Assembly (NCBI RefSeq): GCF_002007645.1
Contig: NZ_CP019791.1
Span: 620,001-684,000 of the forward strand
Direction of reading: 5' to 3'
Origin: Anaerohalosphaera lusitana
GTDB lineage: Bacteria > Planctomycetota > Phycisphaerae > Sedimentisphaerales > Anaerohalosphaeraceae
Length of the DNA stretch: 64,000 nucleotides
Shown here: in pieces, positions 36,589-49,600 of the stretch
Layout of the letters: each line of letters begins with the position of its first letter
Position numbering within the stretch: position 1 is the stretch's first letter
Notes under the pieces: model-generated
Databases searched by the model: none
What the model was told of the DNA's origin: nothing
The model's input: the letters and a program-made list of their open reading frames with translations, nothing else
Position numbers and translations under genes: made by a program

Positions 36589-38253
36589 TTACATCGTCTT
36601 ATACCGCGGTCCGCCCCCGCCCTCGGGCACGGTCCACCGAATGTTGTCAAACGGACACTTCCGCTGACACGTCTTACAGTGCAGACAGTTCGACGGATTC
36701 GCGGGCTTGACCACATCGTGGATCATCTCGTACACACCCGCCGGGCAGAACGTGATGCAGGGCCGTTCAAACTTCCGTCCGCACTCATCGCATTTCGCAG
36801 GATCCAGTATCGACAGATGCGAAGGCTGTTCCTCACGGTGCTCCGTATCCGCCATCGCGGTGAACGTATCCTTATCAAAATCCATGTCGGGCCTGAGCCG
36901 ATACTCCATCGACGTCATGACCTCGTAATCCGGCTCGATATCAAACTTCGGCAGCATCCCACCGAATACGCTGAACGGCATGCCCTGCAGCGGGCCGAAC
37001 TTCGCAACCGTCTGACGGAAATTTTTCGCCGTCCGCATTTCATCGAGCACGCCCGCCTCTTCGACCAGCCTGGTATACTCGACCGCCAGCTCATCGAGAG
37101 CGCCGAGCTTCGAAGTGATCGCCTTGCCCGCCGCAAGCCCCGAAGAGATCGCATTATGCAAACCCTTGATCTTGTTCATGTTCACAAAGCCCGCCGAATC
37201 GCCCAGGATGACCGTGTTCGCCTTGCCGATCGCGTCGGTAGATCCCTCACGCGGGATCGCAAAATATCCGCCTTCCGGGATCATCTTCGCTCCGCCTTCG
37301 ACCACCGTTCCGCCATCGACGAACTGCTTGACGAACTTATGCTCCTTAAATCGCTCCAGCGCATCCTGCGGATTGAAGTCGTAATATTTCCAGTCTAGCC
37401 CGACGATCATCCCCACGGCGATCTTGTTATCGCCCATCGGATACATAATCCCGCCGCCGAACATCGCGGGCCCGATCACCGGCGTCCAGATCGGATAGCC
37501 CATCGCATGAACGACCCGCCCGTCGGTGAACTTTGCGTACTGCTCATCTGTGACCTTGATGTTTTCCTTAACACCAATCGAGTAAAGCTGCGTCGCTTCA
37601 CGCTTCAGCCCCGCCTTCTCGATGAACTTCTCCGTAAGCAGCCCGTCACAGCCCTCCGCCAGCACAACCGCATCAGCCTCGACCACCTCACCCGGCACAA
37701 AATTCGGCAGCGGCTCACCGTCATGACCCCGCCCCTGATCCACCAGCTTCACGCCGGTCGCCTTGCCCGTACTGTCGAGCAGAATGTCCTCAGCCGCAAA
37801 ACCCGTCATCAACTCAACACCGACGTTCTTCGCAACGCCCGCAAGATACCCCGTCAGGCTGCTGATCGACACGATATAGTCGTCCTCGTGCACCATCTGC
37901 CCGAATCCGATCTTGCACGCCTTCGCAGCCTTGATCGCCGGCATCATGCTGAACGAGGCCTTCTTGCCGGCCAAAAACAGAACGTCATCCTTATCGACCT
38001 TGCGCGAAAACAGCTTCTGCGCCTCTTCGTCCTCCCGCCAGTCACCCGCCGCCATATCTAGCAGCTCATGTATAGGCCCCGGTTCGAGCACCGCACCGGA
38101 AAGATTGTGGTTGCCCGGTTCTGCCGCCTTGTCGATCACGCAGACATCGGTGCCAGGACTTTGTTTTTTAAGAGTGATCGCGGCCGAGAGACCCGCGGGC
38201 CCCGCCCCCACGACCAGTACTGAAACCTTATTGTAATTTGTCGAGTCAGCCAC
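36589..38253 (-). CDS. Electron transfer flavoprotein:quinone oxidoreductase with C-terminal ferredoxin domain (FixC-FixX type)
   Basis: Passes electrons from ETF to the quinone pool, or takes part in a Fix-type bifurcating complex. The FAD-binding motif VVGAGPAGLSA spans residues 14-24, with the second FAD segment VILGDSAGFVN near 345. Residues about 470-554 form a FixX-like ferredoxin domain with CDECGRKFERPC, CPAGVYEMI and CLHCKTCQRKCP followed by IRWTVPEGGGG. Two extra cysteines in the first cluster region are unusual. It starts one base past the stop of the fused ETF gene, so the two are translationally linked. The 554 residues match ETF-QO. No transmembrane helix is evident; these enzymes are monotopic. 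Confidence 0.92.
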   Translation of the reverse strand: MADSTNYNKVSVLVVGAGPAGLSAAITLKKQSPGTDVCVIDKAAEPGNHNLSGAVLEPGPIHELLDMAAGDWREDEEAQKLFSRKVDKDDVLFLAGKKASFSMMPAIKAAKACKIGFGQMVHEDDYIVSISSLTGYLAGVAKNVGVELMTGFAAEDILLDSTGKATGVKLVDQGRGHDGEPLPNFVPGEVVEADAVVLAEGCDGLLTEKFIEKAGLKREATQLYSIGVKENIKVTDEQYAKFTDGRVVHAMGYPIWTPVIGPAMFGGGIMYPMGDNKIAVGMIVGLDWKYYDFNPQDALERFKEHKFVKQFVDGGTVVEGGAKMIPEGGYFAIPREGSTDAIGKANTVILGDSAGFVNMNKIKGLHNAISSGLAAGKAITSKLGALDELAVEYTRLVEEAGVLDEMRTAKNFRQTVAKFGPLQGMPFSVFGGMLPKFDIEPDYEVMTSMEYRLRPDMDFDKDTFTAMADTEHREEQPSHLSILDPAKCDECGRKFERPCITFCPAGVYEMIHDVVKPANPSNCLHCKTCQRKCPFDNIRWTVPEGGGGPRYKTM

Positions 38254-38254
38254 T

Positions 38255-40351
38255 TTACGCCTCTTTCAATTCTTCAACCAGTTTCGGTACGATATCATCA
38301 GCCGTTCCGATCATGTAGTAATCGCATTGTTTCAGGATCGGTGCGTTCGGATCCGAGTTGATCGCCACGATCGTCTCGCTGTTCGAAACGCCGATCATAT
38401 GCTGTATCGCTCCGCTGATGCCGATCGCGATGTAAAGCTCGGGCCCCACCGCTGTTCCCGTCTGTCCGACCTGGTGCACCCTGTCGATGAAGCCCTGTTC
38501 TACCGCTGCACGGCTTGCGCCTTTTTCCGTTGACACGCCGAACTTATCGCCGATCACGCCGTTGAGCATGTCGATCATGCTGTCGAACTCATCGCGGTCC
38601 TGCATACCCTTGCCGCCAGCCGTGATAACATCCGCCTCGAAATTGACCTGCCCAGTTGCCATCTCCGTCTTAATGATGTCCAGGCTCTGATCCTCGGGCT
38701 TGAGTTCTACCTTGTGCTCGATCACCTCACCCGTCCGCGAAGTGTCCGGCTCCAGCCGAGTCATTACGCCCTCGCGCGCCGTCGCCATCTGACATTCGCT
38801 GTCCTTCGTCACGATGGTCGCCATGATATTACCACCCAGCGCCGGCCGCGTCTGGAACAGTATCGCAACCTGCCCCTTCCTGCTGCTGTCGCGGATCTCC
38901 AGCCCCGTACAGTCCGCCGTCAGCCCGCACTTGAGCCGATACGAAACCATCGGAGCCAGCACCCGGCCCTGCGGCGTCGCGCCATACAGCACGATCTGCG
39001 GATCATACTTCGCAACACAATCCGCAACCGCCTTGCGGTATACCGTCGGATCGAATTCCTTCAGCAGCGGGTCCTCGATCACATAGACCTTATCCGCCCC
39101 CGCGTGTATCAGCTCGTCCGTAAACTTCTTGACCGCGTCGCCCGCAATGCAAACGCCCACCTTCGTACCCAGCGAATCCGCCAGCTCACGAGCCTTGCCC
39201 GTCAGCTCGAACGTCGCCGAGTTGATCTTATCCTCGCCATGCTCAGCCATCACCCACACTTCGCCTGAGTAACTCGTCTCGGTGCTCTTGAGTGCGTTGA
39301 GCATGTCCTCCAGCGCCTTCTTGTGAAAACCGCCGTCACTCTTTTCGAGTATCTCGTCGAACTGCTTACCGTCGATCTTATTCACGTCCTCGATCTTCAT
39401 CTCAGACAGCAGCCGATTAAGTTCCTTGAAATCGTCGTTCTCCTTGTCCGTCCCCTCATAAGAGCGGTCGAATTTACTCTCGCGCCTGGCCGGCGGCACA
39501 TATGAAGGCCCGGCTTCAGTTTTGTCCTCCTTCTCGCCTGCACCGCCTTTACCCGCGGCGCCCGCGATCAGCTTCGCCAGCTCTTTAACTTCCGTCACTT
39601 CCTGACACTTCCGCGTCGTCTTGCCCGGCGGGAACACCCTGATCACACGCGTCTTAGAACCTTTCACGCCGACGTTGTCCGCGCCGATGTCCTTGGCAGT
39701 CCACTGCGTCATCTCCGCCCGCTCAGCTTTTCGGCTCGCCGCGAACGTTGCGAACAGCGGATACTCGTATTTCGCCACCGTCACAACCGCGGGCATCTGA
39801 TGCGCTTCCACCACCTGGCTCCCGCCTGCGATGATCCGTGTGAATCTGAACTTGCCGTTGATATATTCCGCATCGGTCGCGTACGGTATACAGGGCACCT
39901 TCATCTCTTCAGCGATCTGGGCAGGCACCTGAGCCGTGTCCCCGTCCACCGACTGCATACCGGATACGACGAAATAATCATCCGTCCCGCCCAGCTTGTC
40001 CTTGACGATCTTGCGTATGCCATATGCCAGCGGATTCGCTGTCGCAAACGTATCCGCTCCGCCCAGCGCCCGGTCCGTCAGCAGCACCACATCATCGGCA
40101 CATCTGCTCAACCCGTACTTGAGCACCTCCGCTGCCATCGGCGGCCCCATCGTCAGGCATATAACTTTCGACTCAGGATCGTTCTGCAGATTCCGCATCT
40201 TCCAAGCGAACGCCAACCCCTGTGCATCCAGCTCATTGATTACGCTAGGCAGCCGGGTGCGGATCAGGTTCCCCGTTTTCGGATCGAACGCGTTGTCCGT
40301 GATCTGCGAAACGTCGGGAACCTGCTTTACCAATACGATATAGTGACTCAT
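38255..40351 (-). CDS. Electron transfer flavoprotein, beta and alpha subunits fused
   Basis: A single 698-residue polypeptide. Residues about 1-265 are EtfB/FixA (IVLVKQVPD, GVQS-like SGMQSVDGDTAQVPAQIAE, and the TVAKYEYP region). A charged linker of about 90 residues follows (KEDKTEAGP to STETSYSG). Residues about 360-698 are EtfA/FixB with GATPQGRVLAPMVSYRL, GGNIMATIV and the FAD-binding GQTGTAVGPELYIAIGISG. Separate subunits are the rule, so the fusion is notable. AAAGGTG precedes the ATG. The partner oxidoreductase follows directly. Whether it bifurcates cannot be settled from this reading. Confidence 0.92.
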   Translation of the reverse strand: MSHYIVLVKQVPDVSQITDNAFDPKTGNLIRTRLPSVINELDAQGLAFAWKMRNLQNDPESKVICLTMGPPMAAEVLKYGLSRCADDVVLLTDRALGGADTFATANPLAYGIRKIVKDKLGGTDDYFVVSGMQSVDGDTAQVPAQIAEEMKVPCIPYATDAEYINGKFRFTRIIAGGSQVVEAHQMPAVVTVAKYEYPLFATFAASRKAERAEMTQWTAKDIGADNVGVKGSKTRVIRVFPPGKTTRKCQEVTEVKELAKLIAGAAGKGGAGEKEDKTEAGPSYVPPARRESKFDRSYEGTDKENDDFKELNRLLSEMKIEDVNKIDGKQFDEILEKSDGGFHKKALEDMLNALKSTETSYSGEVWVMAEHGEDKINSATFELTGKARELADSLGTKVGVCIAGDAVKKFTDELIHAGADKVYVIEDPLLKEFDPTVYRKAVADCVAKYDPQIVLYGATPQGRVLAPMVSYRLKCGLTADCTGLEIRDSSRKGQVAILFQTRPALGGNIMATIVTKDSECQMATAREGVMTRLEPDTSRTGEVIEHKVELKPEDQSLDIIKTEMATGQVNFEADVITAGGKGMQDRDEFDSMIDMLNGVIGDKFGVSTEKGASRAAVEQGFIDRVHQVGQTGTAVGPELYIAIGISGAIQHMIGVSNSETIVAINSDPNAPILKQCDYYMIGTADDIVPKLVEELKEA

Positions 40352-40732
40352 ATGACACCTTTAATTCAAGTGTGCTGTCATTTCCATACCCTAAGTTACT
40401 TTACCTGCGAGTGTTTTGCAATATAGCAGGAATTCAAATAATAACAAAGCACCGCCCTATATCTATCAATATCCACCACTGGTAGATTTTGAACAGGATT
40501 CACGACTCTTCAATCTTATTTCACGTGTCAAAACAGAACATCTGCCCGCACGACCAACATGTATTTGTACTCAACTTGCTGTTTTATGCTCGTATTTTAT
40601 CAAAAACCGCATTGTTGACGCCAAACCCTTGATTTTGCCGATATTATCCTGTTACATATTAGCGGAAATCACTGTGGAGCTGCTGGAAACAGTTCCCGAA
40701 TGGAAATGGTAATCGCAGTTAGGAATTAAAAT
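40352..40732. other. Divergent intergenic region, 381 bp
   Basis: Lies between the ETF operon and the corrinoid protein gene. AT-rich, with no ORF of substance and no recognisable cobalamin riboswitch despite the B12-binding product downstream. A possible promoter for the plus-strand gene is TTGATT, 17 bases, TTACAT near 40629-40657. Confidence 0.35.
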
Positions 40733-41356
40733 ATGGCAGATTTACAGGCACTCGCAGATGCGGTCATCAAGGGTGACCAGAAAACAGCAGTAGATCTTAC
40801 AAAATCAGCCCTCGAAGAAGGTACCGGACCCGGCAAGGTACTCGAGGAAGGCCTTATCGCCGGCATGAACGTCATCGGAACACGGTTCAAGGCCAACGAA
40901 GTCTACATCCCAGAGGTCCTCATCTCCGCCCGCGCCATGAAAATGGCAATGGAAATCCTCGAACCCAAACTCGTTGAAGCCGGAGTAGAACCTATCGGCA
41001 AGGCCATTATCGGCACCGTCCAGGGCGATCTGCACGACATCGGCAAGAACCTCGTCATGATGATGCTCAAGGGCGCAGGATTCAACGTGATCGACCTCGG
41101 CGTGGACGTCTCACCCGAAAAATTCGTCGAGCAGGCAAAAGAAAACGGTGCCCAGATCGTCGGCCTCAGCGCATTGCTGACCACAACAATGCCCGCAATG
41201 GAAAAATCCGTCAAGGCCCTCAAAGACGCAGGTCTCGACGCAAAAGTTATTGTAGGCGGCGCTCCAGTAACGCAAGGCTACGCAGACAAGATAGGCGCAG
41301 ATGGCTACAGTCCCGACGCCGCAAGCGCGGTCGATCTCGCAAAATCACTCGTTTAA
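40733..41356 (+). CDS. Corrinoid (B12-binding) methyltransferase-partner protein
   Basis: Cytoplasmic methyl carrier of the MtbC/MttC type. Residues 1-85 form the helical cap domain, and 90-207 the Rossmann-like cobalamin domain with DLHDIGKN (the DxHxxG motif, His101 as lower ligand), then VGLSALLTTTM and VIVGGAPVTQ. The 207-residue length is typical. Such proteins carry a methyl group between a substrate-specific methyltransferase and a tetrahydrofolate or other acceptor enzyme. No methyltransferase gene is adjacent and the gene has its own terminator, so it is an orphan component here. Confidence 0.92.
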   Translation: MADLQALADAVIKGDQKTAVDLTKSALEEGTGPGKVLEEGLIAGMNVIGTRFKANEVYIPEVLISARAMKMAMEILEPKLVEAGVEPIGKAIIGTVQGDLHDIGKNLVMMMLKGAGFNVIDLGVDVSPEKFVEQAKENGAQIVGLSALLTTTMPAMEKSVKALKDAGLDAKVIVGGAPVTQGYADKIGADGYSPDAASAVDLAKSLV

Positions 41357-41375
41357 GCAATTACGCAGATACAGC

Positions 41376-41408
41376 AGGGCGGCGCAAACCGTTGTGTCGT
41401 CCTTTTTT
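41376..41408 (+). terminator. Intrinsic terminator of the corrinoid protein gene
   Basis: AGGGCGGCGCAA pairs fully, counting G-U pairs, with TTGTGTCGTCCT around an ACCG loop, followed by T. Confidence 0.85.
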
Positions 41409-41543
41409 GATGCGCGCATTTGGTAAATGTTACTATGAATTGACCATATCTTGATTTTGCGTCGTCAATTGACGATAATAACAATGATCACAACCTAATC
41501 GCACAATATATGATCCCACCAGCCGCCCGCTGAGACGATAATT

Positions 41544-43172
41544 ATGGCAAAATTTCGTAACGACGATTTAAAGCAATTCTTCACCGAGCTCAAGTTCGCA
41601 CCCAGACCCAAACGCCTCGAACAGCTCTACGCCGCCCGGGATCTGCTTGCCATCGTCGAAGAGGACCGCGAATACCCTCTCGAATTCGTCTGTTTTCGCG
41701 TTACCGGCTACCGGCCGCGTCAGATACTCTCCGGCACACTGATAAAAGGCGATCAGCTCGCCAACGATCTGCAGACCTTCATGGATCGTCTCAGCACCGC
41801 CCTCAAACTCCGGGCCGACGAACAGCCCGAACCCGTCCTCACGATCGCCGATCTGTGCGAAAAATTCAACGTCTCCGCAAAGACCGTTCAGCGATGGCGC
41901 AAACGCGGGCTCTGGGGCTGCATGTACGTCTTCGGCCCACGCAAAAAACGCCTCGGCTTCCTCAAGTCGGATGTCGAACGTTTCATGAATAAAAACCCCG
42001 ACGCCGCGAAAAAGGCCACGCAATTCTCCCTCGTCACCGACAGCGAAAAACAGCAGATCGTCCAACTCGCCCGCGACCTTACCGCCGACAAAAAACTGAG
42101 CCGCCACCAGGTCATACTCAGCATCGTAAAACAAACCGGCCGCTCCAAAGAAACCGTCCGCTATATACTGCTCGAAAACGAAGAACAAACCGACAGCATA
42201 CCCGTCTTCGCCAAACCTTCCGGCGTCATCAGACCCGCCCAGGCCTCCCAGATCTATAAGCTCTACAGGCAGGGCACCTCCATCAAGGAACTGATGGAAA
42301 AATTCAATCGCAGCCGCAGTTCCATCTACCGCCTGATCAATAAGCGCCGCGCGAAGAAGATCGTTTCCGAAAAGATCGACTTCATCGCCAGCGACGAGTT
42401 CCTCACCGAAAATGCAAGACAGCAAATTCTCGGCGACAAATTCGAACTCCCCACCATCGGCAAAAAACGCATACTCTCACGCCCCCAGGAACTAGAACTG
42501 TTCCGCAAGTACAACTACCTCAAATACCTCGCCACCATCACACGCACCCAGATCGACTTTACCAGCCCCCGCGCAGGCCGTCTCGACGAAATAGAAAAAT
42601 ATCTCGATCAGGCCGAACAGATCAAACAGCTCATCATCGAAGCAAACCTCGGCCTCGTTGTCAGCATCGCAAAAAAGCACACCCCCATGACGGGTCACAT
42701 GCCCGATCTCATCAGCGAAGGCAACCTCGCCCTCATGCGCGCCGTCGAAAAATTCGACTACACACGCGGTTACCGCTTCAGTACCTACGCCTCGCTCGCG
42801 ATCGCAAAAGATTTCGCACGTAAAATTCCCGCCGAGATCACCCGTTTCGACAAAGCCAACGGCGGCCCGGACATCGCCGAATACGGCCGCGACATGCGAA
42901 ACATTGACACCGCACACGTCGAGTCCATCGAACGCGCAAACCTCAGCCTCGACGAAGTCATCTCCAACAATCTCACCGAACGCGAACAGTTCGTGATCCG
43001 CAATCATTACGGCCTTGCCAAACGCAAAGTCGGCGAAAAACCAATGACCCTCAAAGAGATCGGCGACAAACTCGGCCTCAGCAAAGAACGCGTCCGCCAG
43101 ATCGAACTGCTCGCTCTCCAGCAGCTTCGTCACTGTCTCCGCCCCGAACAATTCGATCTGCTCATCGGCTAG
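41544..43172 (+). CDS. Sigma-70 family RNA polymerase sigma factor with long multi-HTH N-terminal extension
   Basis: A 542-residue sigma factor. Residues 365-430 are region 2 (EANLGLVVSIAKKH, DLISEGNLALMRAVEKFDYTRG, RFSTYASLAIAKDF) and 475-530 region 4 (LTEREQFVIRNHYGL, TLKEIGDKLGLSKERVRQIE). Region 1.1 is absent; instead about 350 residues precede region 2 with three helix-turn-helix-like segments: 99-122 (IADLCEKFNVSAKTVQRWRK), about 184-210 (SRHQVILSIVKQTGRSKETV) and about 230-270 (SIKELMEKFNRSRSSIYRL). Region 3 is shortened. The factor is probably not the housekeeping one. Monocistronic. Its regulon is unknown. Confidence 0.88.
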   Translation: MAKFRNDDLKQFFTELKFAPRPKRLEQLYAARDLLAIVEEDREYPLEFVCFRVTGYRPRQILSGTLIKGDQLANDLQTFMDRLSTALKLRADEQPEPVLTIADLCEKFNVSAKTVQRWRKRGLWGCMYVFGPRKKRLGFLKSDVERFMNKNPDAAKKATQFSLVTDSEKQQIVQLARDLTADKKLSRHQVILSIVKQTGRSKETVRYILLENEEQTDSIPVFAKPSGVIRPAQASQIYKLYRQGTSIKELMEKFNRSRSSIYRLINKRRAKKIVSEKIDFIASDEFLTENARQQILGDKFELPTIGKKRILSRPQELELFRKYNYLKYLATITRTQIDFTSPRAGRLDEIEKYLDQAEQIKQLIIEANLGLVVSIAKKHTPMTGHMPDLISEGNLALMRAVEKFDYTRGYRFSTYASLAIAKDFARKIPAEITRFDKANGGPDIAEYGRDMRNIDTAHVESIERANLSLDEVISNNLTEREQFVIRNHYGLAKRKVGEKPMTLKEIGDKLGLSKERVRQIELLALQQLRHCLRPEQFDLLIG

Positions 43173-43262
43173 TCTTGGGCAACCGTATAACTGTTCTCGC
43201 TCCCACTGCTGGTCATTGCAAGCTTACCGCAATACAGGGTTGCAATAGGCCTCTTCGATCTG

Positions 43263-46200
43263 TCATTCCATGGCAATATTTGACTGCAATTCATAGCGTC
43301 CTGACTTGAGCTCCAGCACGGCCACTCCATCATCGAACGATATGACTTTTCCGAACGGTTCAGCTTGAACACTCTGTTTTGTTATCGCGGGCATATGCAC
43401 CTCCGCAGTTGTATTCGGCGGGATCACGACCGTACAGTTGAAATGTTTGCCGTCCAGTTTCCAGTCGGTCTCGATCGTTCCTCGAACGGAATCATATCGC
43501 GTCTTCGCCCACTTCAGTTCACCGCCGGGACGCGGCTTGAGAACGATATTCTCAAACCCAGCTCCCTCAGTCCTGATGCCGCCTATATTCTCGAACATCC
43601 ACTGACAAACCGCACCGAAAGAATAATGCGCGAACGAATTCATGCCCGGATTCGCAAAACCCTCATCGGGCGTCCAGCCGTTCCACCGCTCCCAGATCGA
43701 AGTGGCCCCATGCTTGATGGAAAAGCCCCACGATGGGAACGTGTCATTGTGAAGCAGCTTATACGCCACATCGTTCCGACCGATCTTCGCCAACACAAGC
43801 ATCAGATCCTTTGTTCCTATAAAGCCGGTGGACAAATGTCCGTCGTTTTCATCGATACGCCTTAGCAGATGCTCCGCAGCTTTCTTCTGCATATCCTCGT
43901 CCAGCAGATCGTGCGCGATTGCCAGCACATACGCCGTCTGACTGTCGCCCTTGATCTTGCCGTCTTCCGCAACGTAGGCCTCATTGAATGAAGCCTTGAT
44001 TTTCTCAAACAATTTGTCATAAGCAGCCGCATCGTCTTCATACCCCAGCACTCGGGCAGTTCGCGCTAATAGATCGGTGCTGTATGCGAAGTACGACATA
44101 AAGATAACGTCTTTCGGCGTATTGTCATCAATATTGAGCCAGTCACCGTAACAGTGAAATCTGGCAGGCGGCAGCAGTTCATCAGTACAGCGGTTCTTGC
44201 GAAATTCAATAAACTCTTTCATCGCCTCGTAATGCTTCTCCAGCACACGCTCGTCACCGTACATCTTATATATTGTCCACGGACAGATCACCCCCGCATC
44301 GGCCCAAGCGGGTCCGCCATCAGCGCCTGCAACCTTGAGCGGTGCCACCCTTGGGAACTGTCCGTCCGCCCGCTGCGCATCCTCGAGATCGACCAGCCAC
44401 TTGGTGAAGAACGCATGCACATCATTGTGATAGCAGGCCGTGTTGATATAGACCTGTGCGTCGCCCGTCCACCCCAGCCGCTCATCCCGTTGCGGACAAT
44501 CAGTGGGTATGTCAATAAAATTCGCCCTCTGGGTCCATACGGAATTCTGCTGGATCTTGTTTACCATCGGATCCGAACATTCAAACGTCCCCGCAGTCGG
44601 TGTATCACTGCTCAATGCAAGACCAGTCAGCATATCCAGATCAGGCTTAGCATCCAAACCCGTAACTTCCACATACTGAAATCCGTGGAACGTGAAATAA
44701 GGCTGCCATGTCTCTTCACCGTTACCCTTGCAAATGTAGATGTCTGTCGCATCAGCACTACGCAGATTTTCCGTGTAGATCGTTCCGTCCGATTGCAGCC
44801 ATTCGGCATGGCGCAGCGTGATCTTCTGTCCGCTTTCGCCGTTTATCTGGATCCGTACGACACCGGCAAAATTCTGTCCCATATCGAAAACGTACTGACC
44901 GGGTTTGGGCTCGGTAACTGAAACCGGTTTGACCTTTTCAAAAACGATAACAGGTTGATGAACGGCCGCCTGAATCTTAGGCTGCACCTCTTCACCGCCA
45001 ACAGCGACCTTTCGCCACTCAGCATCATCGAAATCCGCTGTATCCCAACCCGGCATCTCCAGTCTCGCGTCATAACTCTCACCCATAAGAAAATCTGCAT
45101 ACCCGATCGGCCCCAGAGACGCTTTCCAGTCCGGCCCCGAAGCAACCACCTGCGAACTGCCGTCATCATAAGTTATATGCAGTTGTGAAAGCAGCCTCAA
45201 CTTCTTGCCGTAATGGTTTCGCTGTCCGCCATAACCCACATAGCCTGCGAACCACCCGTCGGCGAGTATCGCACCGACTGCATTATTTCCCTGCTTGATC
45301 ATATCAGTCACATCATACGTGCGATAATAAATGCGTTTTTCGTAGTCGGTCCAGCCTGGCGAAAAATAATCTTCAGTCACTCGCTGCCCGTTAACGAACA
45401 TCTGATAGATGCCTAATGCGGTCGCGTACAGCCGCGCTTTCGCAATACGTTTTTCCTGCACAGCGAAGCTTCTCCTTAAGTACCGGGCCGGCGGCAGTTC
45501 TTTTACGTCAGTGCCCACCTCACCCCAGGGTTTGCACCCATAAGGCCCAAGCGTACGCGACGCCGACCAGCTAGCCGTATTGTGCTCGACTTGGGTCCAG
45601 CCGTCCTCTTCAGTCGAGGATGAGATCCACTGTTCATTCGTGACGAACTCCAGCGTTTCGCCTGCATCCGACTCAATAACGATAACTGCCAGCAGACCGG
45701 CAGGGTTAGCACTGCTCCCCACGTTTTCTGCCGAAACCGCAACGACATTCCGTCCTGTTTGTACTTCATCACTGATATCGATTGGTTTTATGACTTCCCA
45801 ATCTTTACCTTGCCCGACCGGCAGGCCATTGAGATTAAGCTCAAAACTGTTGTCGGCCGACACGTATGCCATGGCACGATCGACAGTAAAGTCTTTAGGT
45901 ACTTGGAAATTCTTCCGGAAATAGCACTGCCCCACAGGCACATTCTGCCCACGCTGATCCGCCGTCCATATCCAACTTGCTTTCTCGATCACCTTGGGCA
46001 GACCGTTCTTTTTATCCCGCACATCAAAACCAATCCACTCCGCCTGCCAGTCCTCCCGATCCAGAAGCCCCATCGACCACATTGCGGGCCCACTCCAATC
46101 ACTCGGCTCCCCGTCCTTGTCCCACACGCGAACCTTCCAATAGCAATCTATTTCGGACTTAAGTTCCGAACCTGCGTAAACAATTCCAAATGTCCTATCG

Positions 46201-46487
46201 CTTTCAACCTTGCCCGAATCCCACAGATCCGCCTGCCCGGCTTTCAGCTTATCCGGCTCAGTCGCTGCAAGTATTCGATAAGCGGTCTGTTTCTGACCGT
46301 ACCCATCCGAACTCAGTATCCAGCTCATACGCGGTGCTGCCGCATCGATGCCCAGAGGATCAGTTCGAGATTCGCATTTCAGATCCCCGACCGAAAGACC
46401 GTCGTTATCAGTTAATCGAGCTGCATTGCCGAAGCAGCCGCACAAAGCCATACAAAAACAAATAGTCAGAAGAATTTCCGTACGCAT
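43263..46487 (-). CDS. GH78 alpha-L-rhamnosidase, lipoprotein
   Basis: Removes terminal alpha-L-rhamnose from glycans. The 1074-residue product has a lipoprotein signal (CMALCGC lipobox), N-terminal beta-sandwich domains, a central accessory domain, and the alpha/alpha-barrel with the family signature DCPQRDERLGWTGD, which holds the general acid region, then GFIGTKDLM and TSIWERWNGW, and a C-terminal beta domain. The ATG at 46487 is chosen for GAGGGCG upstream and the correct lipobox; a start at 46526 would break it. Last gene of a minus-strand run after sulfatase and GH95, so it probably works on the same sulfated deoxyhexose polysaccharide at the cell surface. Confidence 0.93.
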   Translation of the reverse strand: MRTEILLTICFCMALCGCFGNAARLTDNDGLSVGDLKCESRTDPLGIDAAAPRMSWILSSDGYGQKQTAYRILAATEPDKLKAGQADLWDSGKVESDRTFGIVYAGSELKSEIDCYWKVRVWDKDGEPSDWSGPAMWSMGLLDREDWQAEWIGFDVRDKKNGLPKVIEKASWIWTADQRGQNVPVGQCYFRKNFQVPKDFTVDRAMAYVSADNSFELNLNGLPVGQGKDWEVIKPIDISDEVQTGRNVVAVSAENVGSSANPAGLLAVIVIESDAGETLEFVTNEQWISSSTEEDGWTQVEHNTASWSASRTLGPYGCKPWGEVGTDVKELPPARYLRRSFAVQEKRIAKARLYATALGIYQMFVNGQRVTEDYFSPGWTDYEKRIYYRTYDVTDMIKQGNNAVGAILADGWFAGYVGYGGQRNHYGKKLRLLSQLHITYDDGSSQVVASGPDWKASLGPIGYADFLMGESYDARLEMPGWDTADFDDAEWRKVAVGGEEVQPKIQAAVHQPVIVFEKVKPVSVTEPKPGQYVFDMGQNFAGVVRIQINGESGQKITLRHAEWLQSDGTIYTENLRSADATDIYICKGNGEETWQPYFTFHGFQYVEVTGLDAKPDLDMLTGLALSSDTPTAGTFECSDPMVNKIQQNSVWTQRANFIDIPTDCPQRDERLGWTGDAQVYINTACYHNDVHAFFTKWLVDLEDAQRADGQFPRVAPLKVAGADGGPAWADAGVICPWTIYKMYGDERVLEKHYEAMKEFIEFRKNRCTDELLPPARFHCYGDWLNIDDNTPKDVIFMSYFAYSTDLLARTARVLGYEDDAAAYDKLFEKIKASFNEAYVAEDGKIKGDSQTAYVLAIAHDLLDEDMQKKAAEHLLRRIDENDGHLSTGFIGTKDLMLVLAKIGRNDVAYKLLHNDTFPSWGFSIKHGATSIWERWNGWTPDEGFANPGMNSFAHYSFGAVCQWMFENIGGIRTEGAGFENIVLKPRPGGELKWAKTRYDSVRGTIETDWKLDGKHFNCTVVIPPNTTAEVHMPAITKQSVQAEPFGKVISFDDGVAVLELKSGRYELQSNIAME

Positions 46488-46619
46488 AGAATACGCCCTC
46501 AAAAAAGTATACCTGCCGTTTACCATTTAAAGAAAAGTAGAATTAGCCTCAAGGGTCAAACAAAAAACCGATCGCACCAAAAGATACGAACAATCTTAAT
46601 ATGCCCTGGCGAATCAGGC

Positions 46620-49600
46620 CTAATCCACTTCTACCACATAAGTCTTGCCTTTAGTAGTTTTAAACTCGATCACATTTTCGCTGACCCTCTTTACCTTCGG
46701 CCCGAACCACCCGCCGTCCAGATCCGCAGGCACGTTCGTCCGAACCCGACAGATATTGCCGCTCAGCGACCTGATCCTTGCTTCTTCCAGCTCGCCGTCT
46801 TCCCATTCGATATCCACCTCAAAACCGCCTCGCGCACGTAGCCCCTCGACCGAACCTTCCGACCATTCTTTCGGCAGGGCGGGCAAAAGCTCCACTTCAC
46901 CCGCATGCGACTGCACCAGCATCTCCGCGATGCCCGCGCATCCCCCAAAGTTACCGTCGATCTGGAAGGGCGGATGATTGTCAAACAGATTCGGATGCGT
47001 CGACTTCCTCAGCAGCGCCTGAATATTCTCCAGCGCCCTCTCAGCCTCATGGAACCTCGCCCAGAAATTTATGATCCACGCACGCGACCAGCCCGTATGC
47101 CCGCCGCCGTGCGCCAGCCGATATTCGATGCTCTTCCGCGCCGCTTCGACCATCTCCGGCGAATCCTGATATGTGAACTGATATCCCGGATGCAGCGCAT
47201 ACAGATGCGACAAATGCCTGTGCCCCGGCTCAGCCTCCTTGAACTCCTGCGACCATTCCATAAGACGCCCGTCCGAACCGATACCCGGCAGCATCAGCTT
47301 CTCACGAGCAGCCCGCACCTTCTGCACGAACTCGTCCTCGATCCCCAGCACCTCCGCCGCCTGCAGAACATTCGTAAAGTTCTCCCAGATGATCTCCTGG
47401 TCCATGCTCGTACCCATGTCCGCATTGACCCGGTTTCCATCCGGACCGATGAACGCATTCTCCGGCGAAGTCGAAGGCCCCGACACCAGCTTCCCGCTAC
47501 GCGGATCCTCGATCAGATAACCCAGGTAAAACTCAGCCGACTCCTTCAACAGCGGATACGCCCGCTCGCGCAGAAACTCCTCGTCACCCGTAAACCGGTA
47601 ATGCTCCATAAAGTGCGCCGAACACCACCCCAGCCCCATCGGCCACATACCGTAACCAACGTAACCTATAGGCGCCGTCCACTGCCACGCATCCGTTGTA
47701 TGCCCGGCCGCCGAACCCTTACTGCCCAGCGACTTCGCCATCTCCCTGCCGTTCGGCACAAGCCCTTCAACAAAATCAAAGAACGGCCCGTGCATCTCCG
47801 AAAGGTTCGTAACTTCCGCCGGCCAGTAGTTCATCTGCATATTGATGTTGATGTGGTAATCCGAATTCCAAGGCGCCGCGATATGCTCACACCACACCCC
47901 CTGCAGATTCGCAGGCATCGTCCCCGGCCGTGACGAAGTGATCAGCATATATCGCCCATACTGAAAATACAACGCTATCAACCCCGGATCATACCCGCCT
48001 TGCTTAACCGCTGCAAGCCGCTCATCTGTCGGCATATCTTCATTCTCGCTCTCGCCCAGGTCGATATCCACCCGATCGAAATATTTCGCATGATCCTCGA
48101 CCGCGGCTTCCTCTATAGACGCATAGCTATTACCAACAGCCGCATCGATCTTCGCTTCACAGACCGCAGCACTGTCCCGAACCAGCGGCTGATACGGATC
48201 ATCCTTGTTATAATCAGTCGCAGCCGCCACATAGATCGTCACCGCATCAGCGTCCGCGACCTCCAGCTTCCTGTAGCCTGCCTTCACCTCACCGCCCACA
48301 GCAACCGCGCGCACCTGCGTATGCCACTTCACACCCATCTGCGTCCCGTTGTGCTGCGCCTGCCCATACATCACAATCGAGTCATCACCCTTATTCTCAA
48401 CCTTATAATCCACCGGCCGATCCAGCGCAATATCAAACTCCAGCTCCTCCGGCCCGTCAGCCTCGATCCGCACCACGATCACATCGGCCTGCGGACTCGC
48501 GAACACCTTCCGCACATATTCCGTCCCGTCGATCTCGTAGCTCGTCCTCGCGACCCCCGTCGAAAGATCCAGCGACCGCTGATAATCCTCGACATCCCCA
48601 TCGACATCGAATCTCAGCGTCATGTCCCCGAGCGTCTGATAGCTCCGCGGCGATATTCGCCTGCTCATCACATTCTGCTGAACCACCCGCTGAGCTTCCG
48701 CATACTTACCCTCAAATATCAACTGCCTCGCCTTCGCGATATATTCATACGCCCCCTCAACCGGCTCCGGCACAGGTGGCCCCGCCCACACCGTATCCTC
48801 ATTCATTTGTATCCGCTCTTCCTTCACTCCCCCGAACACCATAGCACCCAGGTGCCCGTTACCCACCGCCAGCGCCTCCAGCCATCTTTCCGCCGGCTCG
48901 TTATACCACAGGCTCCACTCCTCATCCGGCGCTTCCCCCAACGGCTCAACGATCACTGGCAACTGGATCCTCAGCTCCTCGCCGCACACGCTTTCGAACC
49001 CGCCGTTTTCGACCTCGCTGAAATCCCAATTCGCAACGCACCCCTCAAGCCTGTTCGCCTCGTAATCGCCCTCATCCGCCAGATCCTCGATCTCGTCAGC
49101 CGTCAGCGCACGATCATAAACCGCCGCCCGCGCGATCGTCCCCCTGAACCGATTCGCACCGTTACTGTCCGCCCCGATCCGCAACGGCAGATCGTTCACT
49201 ATAAGCGCAGGCAGTTCCCCGCCCGACTGTTCCGCAACTTTCTCACCGTTTACATAAAGCTGCCACACATTCGCATCGCTGTCATACACCCCAGCCACAT
49301 GCGTAAACTCATCCGTCGGCAGATTCGCACCGAACCGCAGATGCCCCGCCGCCGTCACCATCCGCAGCGAGTTACCCGGGTAAGTGTCCAGCATATATCC
49401 GTTGTTCGTCCCAGCACCGCTCTTGTCGATTATCCTCGCACCACCGCCCGGCAGCTTCTCGGGCTTGACCCACGCCTCCAGCGTCACCGCCTCCCGCAGA
49501 TCCAGCGAAGCATCCCGCTCGCTCTCCAGCACGGGCCCCGCCCCGCTAAGCACCACGCCGTCATCATTGATCTCAACACCAGCCGCCCCGCAAAACCCCA

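Follow-up and report, generated by a model that had tools for sequence, protein, structure and literature searches.

A sigma-70 factor that has lost region 3 and carries three HTH domains

The window analysed here, a stretch of 64,000 nucleotides from Anaerohalosphaera lusitana, encodes a sigma-70 protein that has lost its middle domain (region 3) and has gained three helix-turn-helix (HTH) domains at its front, and the sequence comparisons indicate that this architecture is real and ancient. The best explanation, to which we give an even chance, is an alternative sigma factor to which promoter-binding modules of its own are fused and which is probably autoregulated. In bacteria, sequence selection beyond that of the sigma factor is usually the task of separate activators, and transcription in Planctomycetota has been little studied. 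If this explanation is true, a class-wide, single-copy sigma factor whose DNA-binding modules are covalently attached would represent a natural sigma-activator fusion, it would show how an RpoD-like sigma factor can dispense with region 3, and Planctomycetota would gain a core regulator that could be tested on a specific promoter; the candidate for this promoter, described below, makes the sigma-activator question directly testable.

The gene is an uninterrupted open reading frame of 542 aa at 41544-43172 on the forward strand, and its orthologues share 36-54% identity with it. Pfam recognised HTH_17 at residues 98-151 (E 2e-13), HTH_28, HTH_11 and HTH_7 at about residues 231-271, Sigma70_r2 at residues 365-417 and Sigma70_r4 at residues 476-530. 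A preliminary description had placed here a sigma-70 factor with three HTH segments ahead of region 2 and without region 1.1, and Pfam, structure prediction and hhalign bore this out, with the HTH segments at about residues 97-152, 163-212 and 228-272. The closest solved proteins were SigA, HrdB and RpoD, which matched two stretches, residues 302-427 and residues 466-534. Sigma region 2 (residues 360-440, 42621-42863, forward strand as are all features below) was paired by hhalign with RpoD region 2 at P 99.7%, and region 4 (42954-43163; Pfam E 3e-14) with RpoD region 4 at P 98.4%. Between the two lies a short linker (42864-42953) in the place of region 3: the orthologues have a median of 61 residues from Y430 (E. 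coli numbering) to region 4.1, compared with 121 in RpoD and 63 in short paralogues, indicating that region 3 is missing. A Pfam scan of one orthologue returned r2, r4 and HTH families only, while the genome's own RpoD, used as a positive control, yielded r1.1, r1.2, r2, r3 and r4.

Ahead of region 2, a remnant of region 1.2 together with the pre-region-2 segment (FRKYNYLKYLA) occupies 42453-42623, where the phmmer match to SigA begins at residue 302. The alignment revealed that region 1.2 is mostly deleted in the window's lineage, and that orthologues from other families keep GLPPYLASLYxxPLLTREQE. This deletion, the loss of region 3 and a conserved domain at residues 5-92 had been missed by the preliminary description. 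An 'I-x-[FY]-I-x-x-x-x-F' segment at residues 273-300 (42360-42443) was defined from the alignment, and a comparison by eye found it to be similar in the short paralogues.

The roles of individual residues in -10 melting and in reading the -12 and -35 positions are general sigma-70 knowledge, and we examined these residues across 55 orthologues (E. coli numbering throughout). In the -10 melting motif, F427 is retained in 55/55, T429 in 54/55 and Y430 in 54/55; W434 is lost. In region 2.4, Q437 is replaced by K in 53/55 and T440 by A in 55/55. E585, R588 and Q589 of region 4.2 are each kept in 54 of the 55, and R584 is replaced by K. From the retained region 4.2 residues and the substitutions at the -12 readers Q437 and T440, we predict that the protein reads a TTG-type -35 element and has a relaxed -12 position.

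Predicted DNA-contact residues are invariant in the HTH domains of the extension

The first HTH (HTH1; residues 97-152, 41832-41999) is a winged domain, and its proposed resemblance to an excisionase/MerR-type fold was upheld by several comparisons. Besides HTH_17, BldC was the sole match by sequence among solved proteins (E 0.013; structures 6ama and 6amk) and the top Foldseek match (6ama, probability 0.99 though E 0.27), with a VIA-align Z of 6.0; moreover, the phage excisionase family phrog_66 matched HTH1 at E 5e-14. In the BldC-DNA structure, Arg30 and Lys26 touch bases while Thr27, Trp31 and others touch phosphates, and the R30A mutation abolishes DNA binding (PMC5859096). BldC residues K26, T27, R30 and W31 align with K113, T114, R117 and W118 of HTH1. 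T114, R117 and W118 are invariant (55/55 orthologues), and position 113 holds K in 52 orthologues and R in 3. HTH1 carries both the DNA-contact residues of the recognition helix and the basic wing by which BldC/MerR-type winged HTHs are recognised.

HTH2 (residues 163-212, 42030-42179) is a predicted trihelical HTH that is weak in Pfam, and hhalign related it to HTH3 with P 74% and E 3e-6. HTH3 (residues 228-272, 42225-42359) resembles resolvase and Mor-type HTHs, with HTH_28 and HTH_7 matches and, in orthologues, a Mor match. The recognition-helix arginine is invariant in both (R206 in HTH2 and R263 in HTH3, 55/55 orthologues). Median net charge was +6 for HTH1, +4 for HTH2 and +7 for HTH3, compared with -1 for the domain that precedes them. 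Structure models came from single sequences, and the full-length model was poor (mean pLDDT 43); single-sequence AlphaFold gave pLDDT of about 75-85 for HTH2 and HTH3 and the HTH1 topology at low confidence. The preliminary description had named a disordered extension, or one of non-DNA-binding helices, as the result that would speak against it; the extension consists instead of predicted HTH modules, so that this result did not arise.

The domain at residues 5-92 (41556-41819) is conserved in the alignment, and in two genomes (G118 and G186) the N-terminal profile matches this part of the extension only. It is helical in an unreliable model (pLDDT <50), and hhalign found no match between it and the HTHs or sigma regions compared. 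These two genomes encode a variant of 370-381 aa (loci L212 and L211) that lacks the HTH modules, so that the sigma part comes directly after the N-terminal domain.

This domain bears on a different reading of the extension, in which the N-terminal modules form an autoinhibitory or regulatory head that, like region 1.1, keeps the sigma part masked unless released by a partner or signal, with the HTHs binding protein or acting as a scaffold. Region 1.1 lies at the same position in RpoD, where it inhibits the binding of free sigma to DNA (PMC6372665), protein contacts are possible for HTH folds, and the domain at residues 5-92 has neither positive charge nor a DNA-binding match. However, scaffolding would not require invariant arginines in three recognition helices together with a basic wing, and we consider such a head unlikely. 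Far less probable still is an origin of the N-terminal part as a displaced duplicate of sigma regions 3 and 4. Region 3 is absent from where it normally lies, and VIA-align matched residues 163-285 to regions 3 and 4 of solved sigma factors, but the rmsd of 18-20 A is what any two tandem HTHs would be expected to give. When the profiles of HTH2, HTH3 or the two combined were compared with RpoD region 3 or region 4, P was <1%, and this origin was rejected.

The gene is conserved in single copy across the class

Among close relatives, 54 of 59 had a match at E < 1e-40. The search of this architecture across Planctomycetota that the preliminary description had proposed was carried out with an N-terminal profile, which was positive in 91/392 genomes, including all 41 of the 41 sampled in the window's class. 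The profile E reaches 1e-118 and the orthologues span class-level distances, so the protein is not a product of chance. A single match per genome was found in 90 of the 91 positives; the exception (G394) has two matches on two contigs, which look like one gene split by assembly. Short ORFs among the positives (197, 239 and 269 aa) are probably contig-end fragments. In the subset of the 91 genomes whose loci were read, the N-terminal part is joined to the sigma part. The window's genome holds 40 region-2 genes in total, and in the tree the long forms, including one contig-edge fragment, make up one clade with support 1.0, apart from the short paralogues and RpoD. At the sequence level, the gene is conserved class-wide as a single copy.

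Outside the phylum, 299 genomes from two other phyla gave weak matches only (<26 bits), mostly single HTHs in small ORFs. The N-terminal profile had no match in viral contigs, where the full-length profile found sigma parts only; no relatives were found in phages and plasmids, and a single-protein scan of genome contigs returned distant sigma matches only. No description of the architecture was found in the literature searched, a scope that took in few subscription papers and does not prove absence. In the main text of a paper on essential genes of Planctopirus limnophila, the housekeeping sigma factor is the only sigma factor named.

A composite promoter precedes the sigma gene in part of the family

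Comparison of upstream regions in the window's family revealed a composite promoter consisting of GACAnnTGG, a spacer of 25-27 bp that often holds GAAAATT, TTGATT, 17 bp and nATAAT, often followed by GGACTTGAC. In the window, the upstream element CATTTGGTAA (family form GACACTTGGtaa) lies at 41417-41426, and the promoter core TTGATT-N17-GATAAT at 41451-41479. Across 39 genomes of the family, the strict composite pattern had 12 exact matches, of which 9 lie at the sigma gene; its reversed control had 0. It was present in 8/32 upstream regions (0.0 in shuffles), and a relaxed pattern in 10/32, the window included (0.03 in shuffles); because the pattern was derived from the same upstream regions, these shuffle counts overstate its significance, and near-uniqueness across the genome together with the reversed controls is the fairer test. 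The relaxed composite pattern occurs once in the window's 4.25 Mb genome, at the sigma gene. The strict pattern gives about 1 site per genome, which fits either a very small regulon or an over-strict pattern: a search for a wider regulon by strict promoter patterns returned essentially the sigma gene alone, with three other strict matches that were unconvincing, and a search by the relaxed promoter pattern returned scattered further sites.

It is somewhat short of evenly balanced that the upstream element is instead the site of a separate activator or an UP element, with the gene read by the housekeeping sigma factor and the HTHs acting elsewhere. This possibility concerns the promoter only and is compatible with DNA binding by the extension. 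TTGATT-N17-TATAAT has the form of an ordinary housekeeping-type promoter, and the A-rich GAAAATT stretch lies at the position of an UP element. Orthologues of another class carry instead a GAACTT-N15/16-GTC promoter (L043, L045-L048, L053 and L055-L057), a form typical of ECF sigma promoters, and the upstream element is therefore clade-specific. On the other hand, the element is nearly unique to the sigma gene, for which a general UP element is ill-suited, and the base before ATAAT is variable (G, T, C or A) at the few sites available, as expected of a sigma factor without Q437 and T440. In the class with the GAACTT-N15/16-GTC promoter, the sigma gene may be under ECF control.

Returning to a sigma factor fused to its own promoter-binding modules, the protein would belong to a region-3-less sigma family of Planctomycetota. 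Regions 2 and 4, judged by their conserved residues, would bind the polymerase core, melt the -10 element and recognise a TTG-type -35 sequence, and the N-terminal HTH modules would bind additional promoter DNA. By replacing both the lost region 3 and a separate activator, these modules would restrict the protein to promoters with an extra element. Its own promoter would probably be one target, which would result in positive or negative autoregulation. The preliminary description had suggested that such a sigma factor might choose promoters without separate activators, and the upstream element of the own promoter is compatible with activator-free choice by the HTH modules. Against the fusion reading stands above all the geometry: the element, at about -70 to -62, is distant from the site expected for a domain just before region 1.2, and with a linker of only about 30-40 residues, contact would require wrapping of the DNA or a second molecule. 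The N-terminal part could easily reach the GGACTTGAC stretch, which directly follows the -10 element. The upstream element is also confined to part of the family, and upstream sequences differ in other orders and classes. More tentatively, and with less confidence than in the separate-activator or UP-element reading of the promoter, we propose a full sigma-activator fusion, in which one polypeptide would use a promoter of at least three parts (the upstream element through its own HTHs, the -35 element and the -10 element), would replace region 3 and an activator, and would be kept class-wide as a core self-regulating transcription factor.

The protein fits none of Groups 1, 3 and 4 in full

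With regions 2 and 4 and the core-binding and -10/-35 contact motifs, the protein is a sigma-70 factor. Primary (Group 1) sigma factors have regions 1.1 and 3, both of which are absent here. Group 3 is usually defined by domains 2, 3 and 4 (PMC4598750), and region 3 is absent. Like Group 4 (ECF) sigma factors, the protein lacks regions 1.1 and 3, and only a short linker separates its region 2 from region 4. Group 4 sigma factors are without the first helix of region 1.2 (PMC4598750), which is deleted in the window's lineage and retained in other-family orthologues. However, its regions 2 and 4 are RpoD-like rather than of ECF type: the best family matches are RpoD/SigB-type models, and the general model TIGR02937 is also above its cut-off. 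Also unlike ECF sigma factors, orthologues keep the pre-region-2 segment and, in other families, region 1.2, and the protein has an N-terminal HTH extension of about 270 residues. The protein is thus a sigma-70 factor that fits none of Groups 1, 3 and 4 in full.

The RpoD/SigA/SigB proteins of Groups 1 and 2 give the closest matches of regions 2 and 4 and share the TTG-type region 4.2 residues, but the present protein lacks regions 1.1 and 3, has an altered region 2.4 and carries added HTH modules. The short sigma paralogues of Planctomycetota (about 290-360 aa) have the same kind of sigma part, also without region 3, and similar residues 273-300, whereas they have no HTH extension and stand apart from the long clade in the tree. 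The short sigma factors at L225-L242, mostly 290-360 aa long, have no region 3 but an RpoD-like region 4.2, and lie outside the usual groups. BldC, MerR-type winged HTH proteins and phage excisionases share the fold and DNA-contact residues of HTH1, but these are small stand-alone proteins, whereas HTH1 lies inside a sigma factor. MzaA, a sigma-like protein of the MZA anti-phage system, has a similar sigma region 2; identity with MzaA was rejected at 120.9 bits against an NCBIfam cut-off of 800.

Genomic neighbourhood of the sigma gene

In the window, a gene for a corrinoid (B12-binding) protein lies upstream of the sigma gene and a convergent alpha-L-rhamnosidase gene lies downstream. An Rfam scan of 38000-48000 found nothing, and a terminator-like stem-loop with a T tail was observed at 41376-41403, between the corrinoid protein gene and the sigma gene. 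In part of the window's family, the sigma gene precedes genes which, from reading their sequences, we take to be proC- and dnaX-like. In several genomes of another class, it lies just 5' of tRNA-Thr/Tyr/Gly/Thr, tuf, tRNA-Trp and a secE-nusG-ribosomal protein cluster. The tRNA order near the sigma gene is fixed in six loci (L204, L205, L208, L209, L210 and L215), and tuf is next downstream of it, or nearly so, in four loci.
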